Of a DNA stretch of 46,349 nucleotides, positions 1 to 45,423 are shown piece by piece; the stretch's first letter is position 1; every line of letters begins with the position of its first letter. Both the position numbers and the translations under genes were made by a program. Source of the stretch: a virus; the IMG/VR virus record IMGVR_UViG_3300044835_000024, positions 1-46,349 of that record, one strand, 5' to 3'. The notes below the pieces were generated by a model. That model ran no database searches and was not told where the DNA came from. It saw only the letters and a list, made by a program, of their open reading frames with translations.

Positions 1-127
1 TGGGGGTTTTATGAGCACATCTACTGCCATCGATCGCCGCACCTTTTTGGGCGGCAGCGACATGGCCGCCATTCTTGGCCTATCTCCGTGGAAGACTCCT
101 TACCAACTTTGGTTGGAGAAAACATCT
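1..127. repeat. Terminal direct repeat, left copy
   Basis: These 127 bases are identical to the last 127 of the window. The exactness and the odd length fit the overlap left when an assembler using k=127 closes a circle. The repeat therefore most likely marks a circular or circularly permuted genome and need not be a physical terminal repeat. The early operon reads through the join: the last gene stops in an ATGA overlap with the exonuclease start. Confidence 0.95.
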
Positions 128-889
128 CCCGAGGCGCCAGAAGATCACGACTCAGGCGTCAAGAAGCGTGGCCGCCGCCTGGAGCCGGTCATCGTCGATT
201 GGATGCGCGAAGACTACGGCCTGAAGATCGTTGCCCACAACGCGCGCTATGTCGACCCGGAGCTGCCGTTCCTTTCCTGCGAAGTGGACTTTGAGCATGA
301 CGAGATGGAAAACGGCGTCGTCATCACCGAGAACGCTGAAGTGAAGACCGTCCATCCATCCCACGCCAAAGACTGGGGCGATGAGTGGAGTGACGAGATC
401 CCGCTCTACTACACCGCTCAGGCTGCTTTTGGGCAGATGATCACTGGGCGCGACTCGACACTCTTTGCTGTGCTGATCGGCGCAGATGATCTTAGGGCTT
501 ACCGCGTCAAGCGGGATGACGAGCTTATCTGGACACTGCGCAAGAAGGCTGTTGAGTTCTGGGAGTTAGTTGAGAGGCGCACGCCTCCACCAATCATCAA
601 TCTTCAGGATGCGCGGTTGGCGTGGTCGAAGTCTATGCCGGGATCGGTGACGGCTACCGATGAGATTGCTTCTCTGGTGGACGAGCTCCGATTCACCAAA
701 AAGATCATCTCGGGTCGTGAGGCTGAGGCCGAAATGCTGGAGCTCCGCATTGCTTCGTTCATGCAGGACAAAGAGCAGTTGCTCGATGCGCGCGGCGCTC
801 GGCTAGCTACTTGGAAGACACAGAAGCGTAAGGGCTACACCGTCGAGCCGACAGAGTTTCGAGTTATGCGCATGGGGAGGGAATTGTGA
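11..889 (+). CDS. YqaJ-family phage exonuclease
   Basis: This 292-aa protein looks like a YqaJ-type (lambda exonuclease superfamily) double-strand DNA exonuclease, which resects ends so that the partner annealase can load. The N-terminus has the family signature RRTFLGGSDMAAILGLSPW (residues 9-27), then RGRRLEP. The PD-(D/E)XK core is visible as the Asp of SCEVDF and the Glu-Lys pair of AEVKTV. The C-terminal third is helical and charged. The start follows a G-rich ribosome site (GGGGG) and overlaps the stop of the preceding gene across the circular join (ATGA). The RecT gene follows with a GTGA overlap, the classic two-component recombinase pair. Length is normal for the family. Confidence 0.93.
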   Translation: MSTSTAIDRRTFLGGSDMAAILGLSPWKTPYQLWLEKTSPEAPEDHDSGVKKRGRRLEPVIVDWMREDYGLKIVAHNARYVDPELPFLSCEVDFEHDEMENGVVITENAEVKTVHPSHAKDWGDEWSDEIPLYYTAQAAFGQMITGRDSTLFAVLIGADDLRAYRVKRDDELIWTLRKKAVEFWELVERRTPPPIINLQDARLAWSKSMPGSVTATDEIASLVDELRFTKKIISGREAEAEMLELRIASFMQDKEQLLDARGARLATWKTQKRKGYTVEPTEFRVMRMGREL

Positions 890-1821
890 GTGTAGCCGGA
901 CTAAAACAAGTCACCAGTGAGACTGGCCTAGCTAAGCGGGAGAGTTTTCCCACGATGCTGGAGAAGATGAAGCCGCAGATTGCTTTGGCGCTGCCGCGTC
1001 ACCTCAATGCGGATCGCATGTGCCGTATCGCGCTCACCGAGTTTCGCAAGAATCCAAAGCTGGCCGAGTGTGACCCGGTGAGTGTCGTGGCGTGCGTGAT
1101 TATGTCTTCGCAGCTTGGTTTGGAATTGGGCGTCGACGGTCAAGCCTATCTCGTTCCCTATTACGACAAGAAGAAACAGCAGTCCATCTGCACCTTCATT
1201 CCCGGATGGAAAGGGTATGTTGACCTTATCTCCCGTGCCGGTCGAGCTAGTGTGTGGACGCAGTGTGTGCGAGATGGTGACACGTTCAGCTTTCAATATG
1301 GGTCCGAGCCCCGCATCGTGCACCAGCCCGGCGCTGAAACAGACGATGATTCTCCCTTTACTCATGCCTATGCCTGTGGCCGCGTAAAGGGCGCTGAGCA
1401 GTCGGTCGTGGAGGTCTGGAGCCGAGCAAAGGTGCTCAAGCACCTGAAGCGTTACAACAAGGTCGGCGATGCTCACTATGCATTGCAGAACGAAAACAAC
1501 CTTGAAATGTATGGCCGGAAAGTCGCTCTCCTTCAGGTCATCAAGTACATGCCGAAGTCGGTTGAGCTTCAGGTCACCAAGGAACTTGAATACTCCGCTG
1601 AATCCGGGTCGCAGACAATTTCCATCGACGAAGCTGTTGCCGGCACCTTCACTCCGAACGGCTACGACGTGGAAGGCGAGACGGCGGAACAGCGTATCCA
1701 GAAGCTATTCGATCAGTTGGATATTCCCGGCGAGATGCGGGATGACGAGTTAGCCAAACACAAGGACAAGTTAGACGTTTTGGAAGCCAAATTGCGCGTT
1801 GAACTGGAGAAGGTTAAGTGA
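886..1821 (+). CDS. recT: RecT single-strand annealing protein
   Basis: This 311-aa RecT-family annealase should coat the single strands made by the upstream exonuclease and anneal them to homologous DNA. Hallmarks are the early block LPRHLNADRMCRIALTEFRK, then DPVSVVACVIMSSQLGLELG, YLVPYYDK and FIPGWKGYVDLISRAG, in the order expected for RecT. The acidic C-terminal tail (about residues 260-311) is also typical. Translation starts at GTG in a GTGA overlap with the exonuclease stop, with GGGGAGGG just upstream, so the two are probably translationally coupled. Family assignment is secure. A role in replication-linked recombination or cassette exchange is inferred from the family. Confidence 0.95.
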   Translation: MSVAGLKQVTSETGLAKRESFPTMLEKMKPQIALALPRHLNADRMCRIALTEFRKNPKLAECDPVSVVACVIMSSQLGLELGVDGQAYLVPYYDKKKQQSICTFIPGWKGYVDLISRAGRASVWTQCVRDGDTFSFQYGSEPRIVHQPGAETDDDSPFTHAYACGRVKGAEQSVVEVWSRAKVLKHLKRYNKVGDAHYALQNENNLEMYGRKVALLQVIKYMPKSVELQVTKELEYSAESGSQTISIDEAVAGTFTPNGYDVEGETAEQRIQKLFDQLDIPGEMRDDELAKHKDKLDVLEAKLRVELEKVK

Positions 1822-2704: not shown

Positions 2705-3508
2705 ATGCCTGCTAAGTGGCAAAAGTGGATGCCGTTGGATCTCGATCAACTTTGGAGCTCTCCATCAGTGCAAAGAATGTCCAATTCGGCGTTTAAGGGC
2801 TACATCGCTCTCCTGTCCGCTCAATGGCAGTCAGACGACGGAACTCTGCCCAACGACATGCACGAGCTTGCCGAAAAAAGCCGGCTGAGTGATGCAGATT
2901 GGGAAGACAGTTCCGCATCCATTTTGCGCAAGTTCACAAGCATTGAAGGTAATCGGCTACGGAACGAGGTGTGTTTCCAGAAATGGCTCGACGCCAAGAC
3001 CATCTTTGAGGCGCGCCAGGCTTCAGCAAAGAAGACGAACACGGTCACCGCACGGTCACCGCACGGTCACCGCACGGTGCGCAAGCGGTCACCGGGGCGC
3101 TCAGCCGACACACGTACAGATACAGAGACATATACAGAAACAAAAGAACGAAAGCCTTCCGGCAAGCCGGGGACTGAATCTCGTCACAAGGCGTTCCACG
3201 ATCAGATTGATCGCTACTGGAAGCACAAGACGGGCGAAGAGAAAGCACCATGGGACGGTTCGGAGGGGAAAGCCCTCAGCGCGCTATTAGCCGCCAAGCC
3301 GGATCTCACGATCGAGGACTTCCGCCGTTGCTTGAAGCATCGCGGGGACTCTCCAGACGAGGTGCAGACGGAACGCCCACGCCAATGGCTACCAAACGTC
3401 CTGCGATTCACTGGCGGCCCACTGGACCGCTACGGCAAGCCGCTTGAGACGAAACAACCAACCCTGCAACTCCGCGGCGTGACGCTTGAGGAGGCGATGC
3501 AGCGATGA
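2705..3508 (+). CDS. Replication initiator, DUF1376/YdaU and lambda-O type
   Basis: This 267-aa protein is a likely origin-binding protein. The N-terminal ~100 residues (KWMPLDLDQLWSSPSVQRMS, then AFKGYIALLSAQWQSDDGTLPND and ELAEKSRLSDADWE) read as the winged-helix domain seen in DUF1376/YdaU phage replication proteins. The middle (about 112-150) is basic, low-complexity and encoded by tandem 11-bp repeats. The C-terminal part (about 160-230, DQIDRYWKHKTGEEKAPWDGSEGKALSALLAAKP) is a second helical domain. The gene overlaps dnaB by the ATGA rule, as lambda O precedes P and other initiators precede helicases. ATG is preceded by TTGGAAG. Repeats inside the initiator gene echo the lambda ori arrangement. 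Family call is good; origin binding is inferred. Confidence 0.8.
   Translation: MPAKWQKWMPLDLDQLWSSPSVQRMSNSAFKGYIALLSAQWQSDDGTLPNDMHELAEKSRLSDADWEDSSASILRKFTSIEGNRLRNEVCFQKWLDAKTIFEARQASAKKTNTVTARSPHGHRTVRKRSPGRSADTRTDTETYTETKERKPSGKPGTESRHKAFHDQIDRYWKHKTGEEKAPWDGSEGKALSALLAAKPDLTIEDFRRCLKHRGDSPDEVQTERPRQWLPNVLRFTGGPLDRYGKPLETKQPTLQLRGVTLEEAMQR
3040..3160. repeat. Iteron array plus A-rich tract, candidate origin of replication
   Basis: CACGGTCACCG occurs three times head to tail (3040-3050, 3051-3061, 3062-3072). A degenerate copy CACGGTGCGCA follows (3073-3083), then the related GCGGTCACCG (3085-3094). Each good copy holds the quasi-palindrome GGTNACC. About 15 bp later comes an A-rich stretch with few G+C pairs (about 3109-3155, repeated ACAGA/ATACAG words). 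Iterons of about one helical turn, inside the initiator gene and followed by an A-rich segment, match the lambdoid origin layout. Confidence 0.65.
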
Positions 3509-10298: not shown

Positions 10299-10796
10299 AT
10301 GACTAATCCAGCGAGTCAGCAGCCGGCACCTGTAGATCTGTGCCCCATATGCGGAGCCTCCAACGGCGAGAGTTGCAGGACGAAGAGTGGGAGGCGTCCG
10401 TTGAAAATGACCCACCCCGAACGGCGTCGAATAGTCTGTCCAGATTGCGGGCGACCCCTGAGCGTGACGCATTATTACCACAAGAATGGAATATGCGAGC
10501 ATCCCGACCGCGCAATGTATGTCCCACCTATTACTTCGGCGAGTCAGCAGCCGGCACCGATACCGGAGTGGTGTACCGAGTGCCAGTCATCTCTGGGCCA
10601 TCGCCGCCATTGCAGTCAATTCGTGCTCTGCACCAGGGAGCGCGTCATGGAGCTAGAAGCAGCGCTGACGGAGTGCACGGAGGTCATCTTCTGCAACTCC
10701 ATCGCGGACAAGCGGACGGCGGACGCATACAACAACGCAAACCGCTTACTCGCTATGCCTCTGGGGGCGCCTGGGAGCACAAAGGAGAAGAAATGA
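10299..10796 (+). CDS. Zinc-ribbon protein with duplicated linker
   Basis: A 165-aa protein with three Cys modules: CPICGASNGESC (about 15-26), CPDCGRPLSV with a later NGICEH (about 45-70), and CTECQSSLGHRRHC (about 90-103). The sequence ASQQPAP occurs before the first and before the third module, encoded by an exact 20-bp direct repeat (GCGAGTCAGCAGCCGGCACC at 10311-10330 and 10539-10558). The C-terminus (ERVMELEAALTECTEVIF, then DAYNNANRLLAMP) is helical. It ends in GAPGSTKEKK, related to the junction repeat described below. ATG follows AGAGGAC. Function unknown; construction from modules is seen directly. Confidence 0.65.
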   Translation: MTNPASQQPAPVDLCPICGASNGESCRTKSGRRPLKMTHPERRRIVCPDCGRPLSVTHYYHKNGICEHPDRAMYVPPITSASQQPAPIPEWCTECQSSLGHRRHCSQFVLCTRERVMELEAALTECTEVIFCNSIADKRTADAYNNANRLLAMPLGAPGSTKEKK

Positions 10797-11011
10797 GCTG
10801 GAAGAGATTTGATCGAGTCAAGATGTCAGAGAAATTCTTTGCCCAACTACCGTCCTGTGGACGGCCACGAGATAGAGAGGGCACCGTGATGCTCGTCAGC
10901 CCCAAGGGAACAATGGTCTACGTCCGCTGGGATGGCCTGAATTCCGTTAGGGGCGAGTGCACCAAGTGGATCACAGGAGTTAGGGGAACGCCTGGGAGAG
11001 AGAAACCGTGA
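10793..11011 (+). CDS. Small early protein, beta-barrel-like
   Basis: A 72-aa protein, ATG overlapping the upstream stop (ATGA), with AAGGAG seven bases before. The middle (REGTVMLVSPKGTMVYVRWDGLNS) reads like a small beta-barrel such as an SH3-like or KOW-like fold, with two Cys (PSCGR, GECTKW). The last residues GTPGREKP come from the junction repeat. A longer in-frame extension upstream overlaps the zinc-ribbon gene and is spurious. Function unknown. Its small size and the repeat on both sides fit a cassette. Confidence 0.65.
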   Translation: MSWKRFDRVKMSEKFFAQLPSCGRPRDREGTVMLVSPKGTMVYVRWDGLNSVRGECTKWITGVRGTPGREKP

Positions 11012-11184
11012 GCGAACCGATAAGAGTGACTAGGGATCAAGCGCTTCTGGGATTCCTGCGCGTGAAATATCCCGAACAAGTAGCCGAAACCGAAAGGTTG
11101 GTGGACAGCTTAATCGAACAAGGCGTGACGGGAATATACGAGCCTGTCGCTGCGCCTGGGAGAGAGAAGGAGGGAGATCAATGA
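11008..11184 (+). CDS. 58-aa early mini-protein
   Basis: Starts at GTG overlapping the preceding stop (GTGA) after a junction-repeat copy. The helical core (RDQALLGFLRVKYPEQVAETERLVDSLIEQGV) is followed by the repeat-encoded tail APGREKEGDQ. It ends in an ATGA overlap with the next gene. No family is recognised. The first helix pair resembles many phage-encoded host-interaction peptides, but that is only a general likeness. Reality is supported by the overlaps, not by homology. Confidence 0.55.
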   Translation: MSEPIRVTRDQALLGFLRVKYPEQVAETERLVDSLIEQGVTGIYEPVAAPGREKEGDQ

Positions 11185-11360
11185 TCTTGCCTGAAGAATT
11201 AATATTCGTAGCTGTCGCCCAACGCATCAATCGCGAACTGGTCTCCGCGCCGGTACAGGACATATTAAAAGCGGAGAGAGAGCGCATAGCCAGATGGGCC
11301 GAAAGACGAGCAATGCCCAACCTAGCCTTTAACCTACGCATGATGGATGGCGACGAGTGA
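11181..11360 (+). CDS. 59-aa helical early mini-protein
   Basis: ATG overlaps the preceding stop, and the ribosome site is AAGGAGGGAG from the third junction-repeat copy. The product is almost all helix: LPEELIFVAVAQRINRELVS, then QDILKAERERIARWAERRAM, with an acidic end DGDE. Unlike its neighbours it does not end in the repeat; 64 untranslated bases holding a short hairpin (AGAGGA-TTG-TCCTCT) and the fourth repeat copy follow. Function unknown. Confidence 0.55.
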   Translation: MILPEELIFVAVAQRINRELVSAPVQDILKAERERIARWAERRAMPNLAFNLRMMDGDE

Positions 11361-11424
11361 AACCGGGTAGAGGATTGTCCTCTATCAACTGCAGCGCTGC
11401 GCCTGGGAGAGAGAAGGAGCCAAG

Positions 11425-11655
11425 ATGAATACGCGAAAACCAACCTTGAGCCTAACGTGGGGAAAAGTGGACGACGCCTTTGTGGTCCGCTGTGCCGAAA
11501 ACGGGCTTGTCGCGACTGACCTCGATGAGCGGGCAGCAATTGCCAAGATGTTCACCCTGCTATGGCGGCAGATTCAGTTCGAGATACGCCAAGAAGCTAC
11601 GCAACGAGCCGAAGCCAGTTTGGGGACGCCTGGGAGAGAGAAGGAGGGATCGTGA
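11425..11655 (+). CDS. 76-aa early protein, unknown
   Basis: ATG follows GGAGCCAAG of the fourth junction repeat. The product starts with a beta-rich part (PTLSLTWGKVDDAFVVRCAENGLVATDLDERAAIAKMF), continues with a helix (LLWRQIQFEIRQEATQRAEA), and ends with LGTPGREKEGS encoded by the fifth repeat copy. The first half resembles the small antitoxin-like or HicB-like strand-helix units seen in phage mini-proteins, but the match is too weak to name. It overlaps the acetyltransferase gene start. Confidence 0.6.
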   Translation: MNTRKPTLSLTWGKVDDAFVVRCAENGLVATDLDERAAIAKMFTLLWRQIQFEIRQEATQRAEASLGTPGREKEGS

Positions 11656-12095
11656 GTCTAACCGTGGTGCCGTGCAATATCGACGAAGCGAATGCGTTCA
11701 TCGAGCGCGTGCATCGTCACCACGGGTCACTTCCCGGGGCCAAGTTCGCAATTGCTGTAGCCGAAGGAGATGAGGTTTGCGGCGTCGCATTGGTGGGTAG
11801 GCCAGTCTCGCGGATGAGGGATGACGGATTCACTGCGGAGGTGACGCGGCTCGCTACAGACGGCACCAAGAACGCCTGCAGCATGCTTTACGCGGCGTCA
11901 TGGCGTGCAGCTCGGGCGATGGGCTACCGAAGGATGGGGACGTACATCCTCAATTCAGAGCCGGGGACGAGTCTCATCGCTGCTGGCTGGAGATTGATCG
12001 GGGAAGCAGGCGGCGGTTCGTGGTCGAGAGATAAAAGGCCGCGTGTGGACAGGGCACCAATGCAGGGAAAGCTGCTTTACGAAGTGGGGGTCTGA
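11652..12095 (+). CDS. XF1762-family GNAT-like acetyltransferase
   Basis: A 147-aa protein that matches the phage/prophage XF1762 family, distant relatives of GNAT N-acetyltransferases. Diagnostic blocks are ANAFIERVHRHHGSLPG, AIAVAEGDEVCGVALVGRPVSR, TAEVTRLATDGTKNACSMLY, AARAMGYRRMGTYIL and GTSLIAAGWRLIGEAGGGSW, ending in RPRVDRAP. The A-x-R-x-M-G-Y-R segment is the probable acetyl-CoA-binding turn. GTG after GGAGGGATC is chosen because it overlaps the preceding stop and starts in the fifth junction repeat; a longer upstream reading lies inside the previous gene. The substrate is unknown. Homologues sit in phage early regions, so modification of a host or phage protein, or of DNA bases, is possible. 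Confidence 0.88.
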   Translation: MSLTVVPCNIDEANAFIERVHRHHGSLPGAKFAIAVAEGDEVCGVALVGRPVSRMRDDGFTAEVTRLATDGTKNACSMLYAASWRAARAMGYRRMGTYILNSEPGTSLIAAGWRLIGEAGGGSWSRDKRPRVDRAPMQGKLLYEVGV

Positions 12096-34818: not shown

Positions 34819-34942
34819 TTTGCGCCTCCGCGTATTGCTCCAACTCTTCAATCTTGATGTTCGGCGGATCCGCACACGGGATACACGCCCCGGGCCCGAT
34901 CTTTAAGCGGATACAGGCACTCTTGAACTCTTCCGCCGTCAT
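34793..34942 (-). CDS. 49-aa Cys-containing protein
   Basis: A short frame starting in an ATGA overlap with the zinc-finger gene upstream and ending 26 bases inside the next. Sequence: TAEEFKSACIRLKIGPGACIPCADPP, then IKIEELEQYAEAQNAKSARQS. Three Cys occur (SACI, GACIPC). It ends by supplying GGAGGCG as the ribosome site of the next gene. Function unknown; the overlaps at both ends argue that it is translated. Confidence 0.55.
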   Translation of the reverse strand: MTAEEFKSACIRLKIGPGACIPCADPPNIKIEELEQYAEAQNAKSARQS

Positions 34943-44415: not shown

Positions 44416-44460
44416 CTACGAATCAATAGGTCGGGAGTTCGAATCTCTCTGGGCGCACCA
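44416..44460 (+). other. attP: Probable attP core: 3' part of a tRNA-Arg(ACG) gene
   Basis: From the anticodon loop CTACGAA (anticodon ACG) these 45 bases match bacterial tRNA-Arg positions 32-76: 3' anticodon strand TCAAT, variable loop AGGTC, T-stem GGGAG, T-loop TTCGAAT, T-stem CTCTC, acceptor TGGGCGC, A, CCA. T-stem pairing holds (one G-U). The bases 5' of it do not pair with TCAAT or TGGGCGC, so the tRNA is incomplete. This is the classic attP design that rebuilds a host tRNA on integration. Confidence 0.85.
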
Positions 44461-44768: not shown

Positions 44769-45049
44769 ACCACACACGCGGAGAGATCGCCTTTACCAAA
44801 GACGGTGTGCTGATGAGCGATGACGGTAAGCCGCTCGTCTGCCACGACAATTCGCCCAACCGGCCACGGGAGCAGAGCGCGGCCAACCGAGCGCGCCTAT
44901 GCCTTTGTTGGAACACGCACGATGAATTGCTGGAAGCGCTCAAGGCCTGCCGGGATTATCTGCATTACGCTGACGGTCCCGAGGCCTTCCGCACGGAATA
45001 CGACAAGGCCAACGCAGCCATCGCCAAGGCTACAGGCGGTGCAGCATGA
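44765..45049 (+). CDS. 94-aa early protein, unknown
   Basis: GTG start overlapping the membrane-protein stop. NHTRGEIAFTKDGVLMSDDGKPLVCHDNSP continues with ANRARLCLCWNTHDELLEALKACRDYLHYADGPEAFRTEYDKANAAIAKATGGAA. The second half (HDELLEALKACRDYLHYA) is a helical motif recurrent in phage early proteins of Gram-negative hosts ('NTHDELLEALK'), where it belongs to a small domain of unknown role. The last nine residues IAKATGGAA recur at the end of the next gene. It stops in an ATGA overlap. Confidence 0.65.
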   Translation: MNHTRGEIAFTKDGVLMSDDGKPLVCHDNSPNRPREQSAANRARLCLCWNTHDELLEALKACRDYLHYADGPEAFRTEYDKANAAIAKATGGAA

Positions 45050-45423
45050 GCGGATACAACTTGCCTCCCGGCGTCTCGACACGGGACATCGACAATCTCG
45101 GCACCAACTCCGAGGAAGATCGCTACGGCAACGAAGAAGACTGCATGCTCTGCCATCGCGCCTTCATTCAGGACAGCTTCGACCAGCGCTTCTACTTCGC
45201 CGATGACGTCGAGTATTACAGCTTCAAAAACCTCAGCTATTCCAAGTCGATCAACCCGTTTCAAGTGCAGGGTGGTTGGATCTGCGGCATGGATTGCTAC
45301 AACGGCCATGCTGTCGAGGCGGATGAGCCTGAGGGGGGGATTGGCATCCATCTTGTGCTTAAGCCATTGGCTGTCTTGGCTCTTAAAGCGGTCATCGCCA
45401 AGGCCACAGGCGGTGCCGCATGA
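45019..45423 (+). repeat. 31-bp stop/start-associated repeat, two copies
   Basis: At 45019-45049 and 45393-45423 the same 31 bases occur with two mismatches, beginning CATCGCCAAGG and ending in the ATGA overlap. Each encodes the C-terminal IAKATGGAA and gives the GGCGGTG ribosome site of the next gene. The proteins around the repeat are unrelated apart from the end. Confidence 0.85.
45046..45423 (+). CDS. 125-aa early protein with CxxC pairs
   Basis: Starts in an ATGA overlap. SGYNLPPGVSTRDIDNLGTNSEEDRYGNEEDCMLCHRAFIQDSFDQRF continues with CGMDCYNGHAVEADEPEGG. CMLC...CGMDC could bind zinc. The last 30 residues (LVLKPLAVLALKAVIAKATGGAA) look different from the rest and end in the repeated IAKATGGAA, so the C-terminus may have been acquired by recombination at the junction repeat. 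Function unknown. Confidence 0.65.
   Translation: MSGYNLPPGVSTRDIDNLGTNSEEDRYGNEEDCMLCHRAFIQDSFDQRFYFADDVEYYSFKNLSYSKSINPFQVQGGWICGMDCYNGHAVEADEPEGGIGIHLVLKPLAVLALKAVIAKATGGAA

Follow-up and report, generated by a model that had tools for sequence, protein, structure and literature searches.

We analyzed a stretch of 46,349 nucleotides, the virus record IMGVR_UViG_3300044835_000024 (here called the window), which is a complete circular phage genome with a terminal repeat of 127 bp (1-127/46223-46349). Close to where its rightward early operon ends, ahead of the convergent structural genes, lies an array of mini-genes that ends at a gene for a Mom-like DNA modification protein (Table 1). The portal, major head protein, and TerL are podovirus-like; the other genes include RecE/RecT-like recombination genes, a DnaB-like helicase, a DNA methyltransferase, and an integrase. 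The RecE/RecT-like pair is candidate machinery for short-homology recombination, a putative role. No Rfam families were found in the window, and promoter-like and terminator-like sites (sigma-70 type only) in the array stretch did not exceed those in shuffled sequences, with none in the repeat described below.

Directly after the integrase gene, a tRNA 3'-end-like sequence ending in GGGCGCACCA (44420-44460) is the likely attP. The motif is spread over many phyla, so that no host could be assigned from it, and a search with a TerL profile found no related prophages in bacterial genomes. An 11-bp tandem repeat, CACGGTCACCG, lies within a coding region at 3040-3083.

Table 1. Genes and junction repeat copies of the mini-gene array, with the recombination gene pair of the same genome
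Feature	Positions	Strand	Description
RecE-like exonuclease (11-889) and RecT-like annealing protein (886-1821)	11..1821	+	
Gene A	10299..10796	+	165 aa; phage zinc-finger-like N terminus (Pfam PF24623)
Junction copy 1 (A/B)	10768..10792	+	CGCCTGGGAGCACAAAGGAGAAGAA, then ATGA; encodes APGSTKEKK
Mini-gene B	10793..11011	+	72 aa; no homologues found
Junction copy 2 (B/C)	10989..11007	+	CGCCTGGGAGAGAGAAACC, then GTGA; encodes TPGREKP; GGAG end missing
Mini-gene C	11008..11184	+	58 aa; no family matches
Junction copy 3 (C/D)	11153..11180	+	CGCCTGGGAGAGAGAAGGAGGGAGATCA, then ATGA; encodes APGREKEGDQ
Mini-gene D	11181..11360	+	59 aa; no family matches; lacks the common tail
23-codon ORF between D and E	11357..11428	+	Has the common tail; overlaps D at GTGA and E at ATGA
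Junction copy 4 (before E)	11400..11424	+	CGCCTGGGAGAGAGAAGGAGCCAAG, then ATGA; APGREKEPR, in frame with the 23-codon ORF
Mini-gene E	11425..11655	+	76 aa; no homologues found
Junction copy 5 (E/F)	11627..11651	+	CGCCTGGGAGAGAGAAGGAGGGATC, then GTGA; encodes TPGREKEGS
Gene F	11652..12095	+	147 aa; Mom-like DNA modification protein (phrog_1384, E 2.4e-33)

The mini-genes are predictions from sequence. No homologues of B to E were detected, and searches of GenBank phages with A, B, and E returned no relatives. Outside their common tails, the proteins of the array have no convincing similarity to each other, in agreement with the original prediction that the genes between the repeats are unrelated. 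A homology of B to an SH3-like-looking gene of the related contig G001, suspected by eye, found no support in BLAST. Gene A carries an exact 20-nt repeat, GCGAGTCAGCAGCCGGCACC, at 10311-10330 and 10539-10558, which encodes ASQQPAP twice and gives the appearance of two fused zinc-finger mini-genes. Between D and copy 4, a perfect 7-bp stem (TAGAGGA-TTG-TCCTCTA, 11368-11384) is not followed by a T-run.

A repeat at five consecutive gene junctions

The repeat, CGCCTGGGAGAGAGAAGGAG, occurs in five copies, all on the plus strand, at five consecutive mini-gene junctions within 0.9 kb (10768-11651); coordinates and mismatch counts bear out the original prediction on this point. Copies 2 to 5 fit a 20-mer with at most three mismatches, where 0.02 matches are expected by chance in a 46-kb genome, and copy 1 (CGCCTGGGAGCACAAAGGAG) has four mismatches to the 20-mer. 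A search of the whole 46-kb genome found no further copies. Exactly shared stretches measure 25 nt between copies 3 and 4, 23 nt between copies 3 and 5, and 17 nt between copies 2 and 5; ten bases, CGCCTGGGAG, are identical in all five, with partial agreement outside them.

Each copy had been predicted to end as a Shine-Dalgarno sequence. This holds for the four copies in which AAGGAG stands shortly upstream of the start; in copy 2 (CGCCTGGGAGAGAGAAACCGTG), the GGAG end is missing, and GGGAGAG is the only possible Shine-Dalgarno sequence. All five junctions are stop-start overlaps, either ATGA or GTGA. The distances from CCT to the start (23, 17, 26, 23, and 23) all equal 2 mod 3 and place the five copies in one frame, a constancy that, after the first copy, has a chance of 1/81.

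This frame can be read through every copy, since copy 4 sits in frame in the predicted 23-codon ORF between D and E. The GTG start of this ORF lies within the GTGA shared with the stop of D; the ORF reads VKPGRGLSSINCSAAPGREKEPR and terminates at the ATGA that starts E. Through this ORF, copy 4 may be coding. One copy had been taken as untranslated, and it had been argued from that copy that the nucleotides rather than the peptide are selected; with copy 4 readable, the premise is not supported and the argument loses its basis.

Distribution of the repeat and junction repeats of a relative

An exact 19-mer of the repeat has no other match in IMG/VR, and a 16-mer is found there in six contigs, in single copies within what appears to be coding sequence. 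A comparison is offered by G001, a contig of 44,776 bases from the same group. Its TerL is 82% identical in amino acid sequence to that of the window, most structural genes are common to both at ∼68 to 78% DNA identity, and its Mom-like protein is 88% identical to that of gene F, yet it contains no copy of the repeat. The junction repeat looks private to the window phage, as judged from a thinly sampled group: G001 and one 14-kb fragment are the only relatives found via TerL, and no relatives were found via mini-gene B or DnaB. The same repeat had been expected to flank different genes in different phages; neither the 19-mer search of IMG/VR nor G001 provided such a case.

G001 has junction repeats of its own. 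GTAGCTAGGAGCGG lies on either side of its Mom gene (847 and 1299), and further pairs are formed by GAGCGGAGGAGACGAGA (1307/1535), CTGCATCCACAGGGGAG (2656/3435), and GAGGAGACACGCAATGGC (3449/3651); each pair encloses one gene. At 1-160 and at the opposite end of contig L005 there is a 12-bp tandem repeat, TGCCTGGGACGC, which belongs to an AWDAARDA-type repeat protein and spans the ends of the circular G001.

Junction sequences are shared by adjacent starts

Contigs with Mom-like genes were scanned with a purpose-written, simple and crude gene caller, and start pairs from different genomes, with homologous genes removed, served as the control for Shine-Dalgarno similarity. Among these contigs, 12 start pairs within a genome share at least 15 exact nt, against 0.15 expected from Shine-Dalgarno similarity, and at this length adjacent starts are in excess by a ratio of 26. 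When the window and G001 were left out, sharing of at least 13 nt was seen in 13 of 1,244 adjacent pairs and 14 of 11,780 other pairs among 63 Mom contigs; for 65 methyltransferase contigs, which formed an independent set, the counts were 12 of 1,369 and 12 of 13,570, respectively. Sharing is thus ∼10-fold commoner at adjacent than at nonadjacent starts (Fisher p ∼3e-7 in each contig set), and ∼1% of adjacent junction pairs have a common junction sequence. When the compared segments were moved 90, 150, or -120 nt off the starts, the adjacent count fell from 26 to 1, 0, and 1, respectively. Local composition may inflate part of the adjacent matches, for example in contig L073.

That contig has, at 150-1960, at least six junction copies of the type CTAACC...CAACCAAGGA that directly follow stop codons; this array is like that of the window but untranslated and of another sequence. 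The window itself holds two further adjacent pairs. One is a 39-nt repeat of 87% identity (45011-45049 and 45385-45423) with an ATGA end, which gives neighboring genes nearly equal tails (AIAKATGGAA and VIAKATGGAA); the other, on the minus strand, is a start pair at 34942 and 35100 with GAGAAGGGTGAGG in common and one mini-gene enclosed.

Relatives with and without an enclosed gene

All relatives compared here are metagenomic contigs. L124 has a single junction, GCGTGGAATGAGACTGGAGACGACACCATGCAAGC, with one copy of GAGACTGGAGACGA; L175 has the same left context, then a gene of 109 aa, and then a second copy (ACGAGACTGGAGACGACACATGCAAGC) before the same downstream gene. Likewise, L078 has one copy of a ACAACACGAGGG-type junction where L082 has two around an extra gene. 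In both pairs, the phage without the gene has one junction copy and the phage with it has two, a pattern that fits gain or loss alike. In L124, several neighboring genes end in EVRS, AVRS, or EVRP, which is a translated Shine-Dalgarno overlap and the same effect as the PGREK tails in the window. Neither a relative with the same mini-genes nor an empty version of the window array was found.

Among 39 distinct gene-size indels between relatives, a flanking repeat of at least 9 nt was present in 5, against 0.7 expected, and one of at least 12 nt in 3, against 0.0 expected; this excess comes from a second design, in which the searched segments were those where the duplication must lie, whereas a first design with misplaced segments gave none. 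One of the three cases of at least 12 nt (L078/L042) lies within coding sequence and not at a start. Because the other 34 indels have no flanking repeat of at least 9 nt, junction duplication is one route among several. At least one edge fell at an ATGA/GTGA-type motif in 25 of the 39 mini-gene indels, where the background is 0.13 per edge.

Origin of the array

We consider it probable that the repeats are scars or joints of recombination left by the gain or loss of single mini-genes and that the PGREK tails arise by translation of the ribosome-site junction. The repeat would be a duplicated stop-start junction, made up of the last codons of the upstream gene, the Shine-Dalgarno sequence, and the overlapping next start. 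Mini-genes would be added to this early-operon stretch, or lost from it, one at a time, so that each extra gene lies between two junction copies. In the window, an ancestral A-junction-F arrangement may have taken in B, C, D, and E, with the junction copied at each event, leaving five copies around four insertions. After such a duplication, the newcomer and its downstream neighbor would each have a ribosome site and a coupled stop-start, and this would be why the events survive. The PGREK tail would be a side effect of translating the junction in the one frame with a stop at ATGA/GTGA; in other frames, the upstream protein would run on into its neighbor, and this would account for the frame being constant. 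Such constancy requires either that the stop-start overlap be selected or that a unit brought its frame with it. Repeats, frame, apparent privacy, the adjacent-start excess, and the empty sites in other phages were seen directly, and from them we infer the same origin for the window array. The joining agent may be the phage's own RecE/RecT annealing system, a candidate because annealing proteins of the RecT type recombine sequences of short or diverged homology (PMC3945230), or illegitimate joining may have been responsible. Of the original idea of a recombination joint for swapping mini-genes, the joint of gene gain or loss is supported by the one-copy and two-copy versions in two pairs of relatives; a repeat common to different phages is not, since each phage has its own, in most cases around single mini-genes.

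Alternatively, the repeat could be a phage-specific signal for ribosome recruitment or coupling, perhaps bound by a factor and held identical by selection like the start-associated sequences (SAS) of mycobacteriophages. Its location at starts, the AAGGAG close before four of them, and identity that reaches upstream of any 16S pairing are in keeping with such control of translation, as is the slightly weaker structure of the region relative to other starts (unpaired, 0.54; other starts, 0.43; SD, 0.13). However, a signal of this kind would have to serve a run of neighboring genes within 0.9 kb and none of the phage's other starts, be absent from G001 despite the conserved Mom gene, and tolerate the loss of the AAGGAG end in copy 2; SAS of phage TM4, by comparison, are dispersed (in the right half, 1 of ∼40 start pairs sharing at least 12 nt is adjacent) and conserved in the cluster (PMC3203893). 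We therefore regard this explanation as unlikely; for the common translation-control element originally put forward, a genome-wide form finds no support in copies that are consecutive, so confined, and not conserved in G001.

The junctions could also be standing recombination sites, i.e., homology arms reused for cassette exchange between phages with the same junction, rather than scars. The phage has RecE/RecT genes, whose RecT-type product fits recombination at short homologies, and many indel edges fall at ATGA/GTGA-type motifs. Against this, the 19-mer occurs in no other IMG/VR phage and the six contigs with the 16-mer carry it singly in apparent coding sequence, so that no exchange partner is known; moreover, 17 to 25 nt is short for efficient exchange. 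This makes a standing site a rather improbable origin.

Tandem gene duplication followed by extreme divergence, with B, C, D, and E as old paralogues in which only the junctions are still alike, would likewise place a junction copy between every gene, but the proteins have nothing convincing in common beyond the tail, and 20 to 25 nt of identity beside unrecognizably diverged genes is improbable unless strongly selected; we give it very little credence. What is selected could instead be the C-terminal peptide PGREK(E), perhaps a docking or turnover tag, the DNA identity being secondary. The single frame of all five copies would agree with this, but we find it equally hard to credit, given that DNA identity is exact over 16 to 25 nt, synonymous sites included, and that the same architecture occurs elsewhere with junctions past the stop codons (L073) or with other tails (EVRS/EVRP in L124).

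We suggest, tentatively, that copying of the recipient's stop, Shine-Dalgarno sequence, and start might be a general phage route for adding single genes ready for expression. Private junction-repeat arrays could then be records of successive gene gains in which no gene loses its ribosome site, which we put forward just as cautiously. An old question is whether gene exchange among phages uses short homologies at gene boundaries or results from illegitimate joining at random, followed by selection. Private junction repeats around single genes, as seen in the five-copy array and in the statistical excess in 128 other contigs, offer a signature for finding recent one-gene gains or losses, and from such repeats the joints can be read base by base. 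They also explain a C-terminal tail common to unrelated neighboring phage proteins, which otherwise invites wrong functional guesses.

Comparison with known systems

We found no report of multicopy junction arrays or of the adjacency signature in open-license papers. The original prediction had drawn a parallel to the start-associated sequences of some mycobacteriophages. SAS and ESAS occur in mycobacteriophages of Cluster K and in Microbacterium phages of Cluster EF (PMC3203893, PMC7302621). Like them, the junction repeat is short and asymmetric, lies a few nucleotides upstream of start codons in a subset of nonstructural genes, has a Shine-Dalgarno core, and is conserved beyond 16S pairing. 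On the other hand, SAS number ∼10 to 19 copies per genome, are spread over the nonstructural half, and are conserved in the cluster, whereas the window has five consecutive copies that appear private to one phage: G001 and, for the 19-mer, IMG/VR lack the repeat, within a thinly sampled group. The parallel thus breaks down on dispersal and cluster conservation.

In one proposal for phage mosaicism, cited in PMC3029335, conserved boundary sequences of short length could let modules recombine through homology at gene boundaries; the window repeat is shared among junctions inside one phage and not between phages. The PeSL cassettes of T4-like phages, to the extent that they are characterized in PMC4503421, where they are cited, resemble the array as a repeated intergenic regulatory unit with gene shuffling in a plastic region. 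They consist of an early promoter and a stem-loop, whereas the window stretch has no promoter-like or terminator-like site beyond chance.

The nearest precedent was described by Pope et al. in 2011: gene 68 of Island3, an orphan mini-gene, shares its C-terminal 18 residues and ∼50 to 60 bp with the upstream gene 67, and Brujita (gene 66) lacks the extra gene and has a single recombinant copy (PMC3029335). We confirmed this two-copy and one-copy pattern in the sequence records; Pope et al. were unable to separate deletion from acquisition (PMC3029335). As in Island3 67/68, neighbors in the window array are unrelated in their bodies and have a 3' end and junction in common. Island3 has two copies and the window five in a row, and the Island3 repeat lies at gene ends, whereas that of the window extends through the Shine-Dalgarno sequence to the next start. 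Island3 has an empty relative in Brujita, whereas none was found for the window array; a one-copy relative without the gene, like Brujita, was seen for L175/L124 and L082/L078. The two-copy version was therefore already known (PMC3029335), and the present analysis adds a five-copy array together with the excess of shared junction sequences at adjacent starts.
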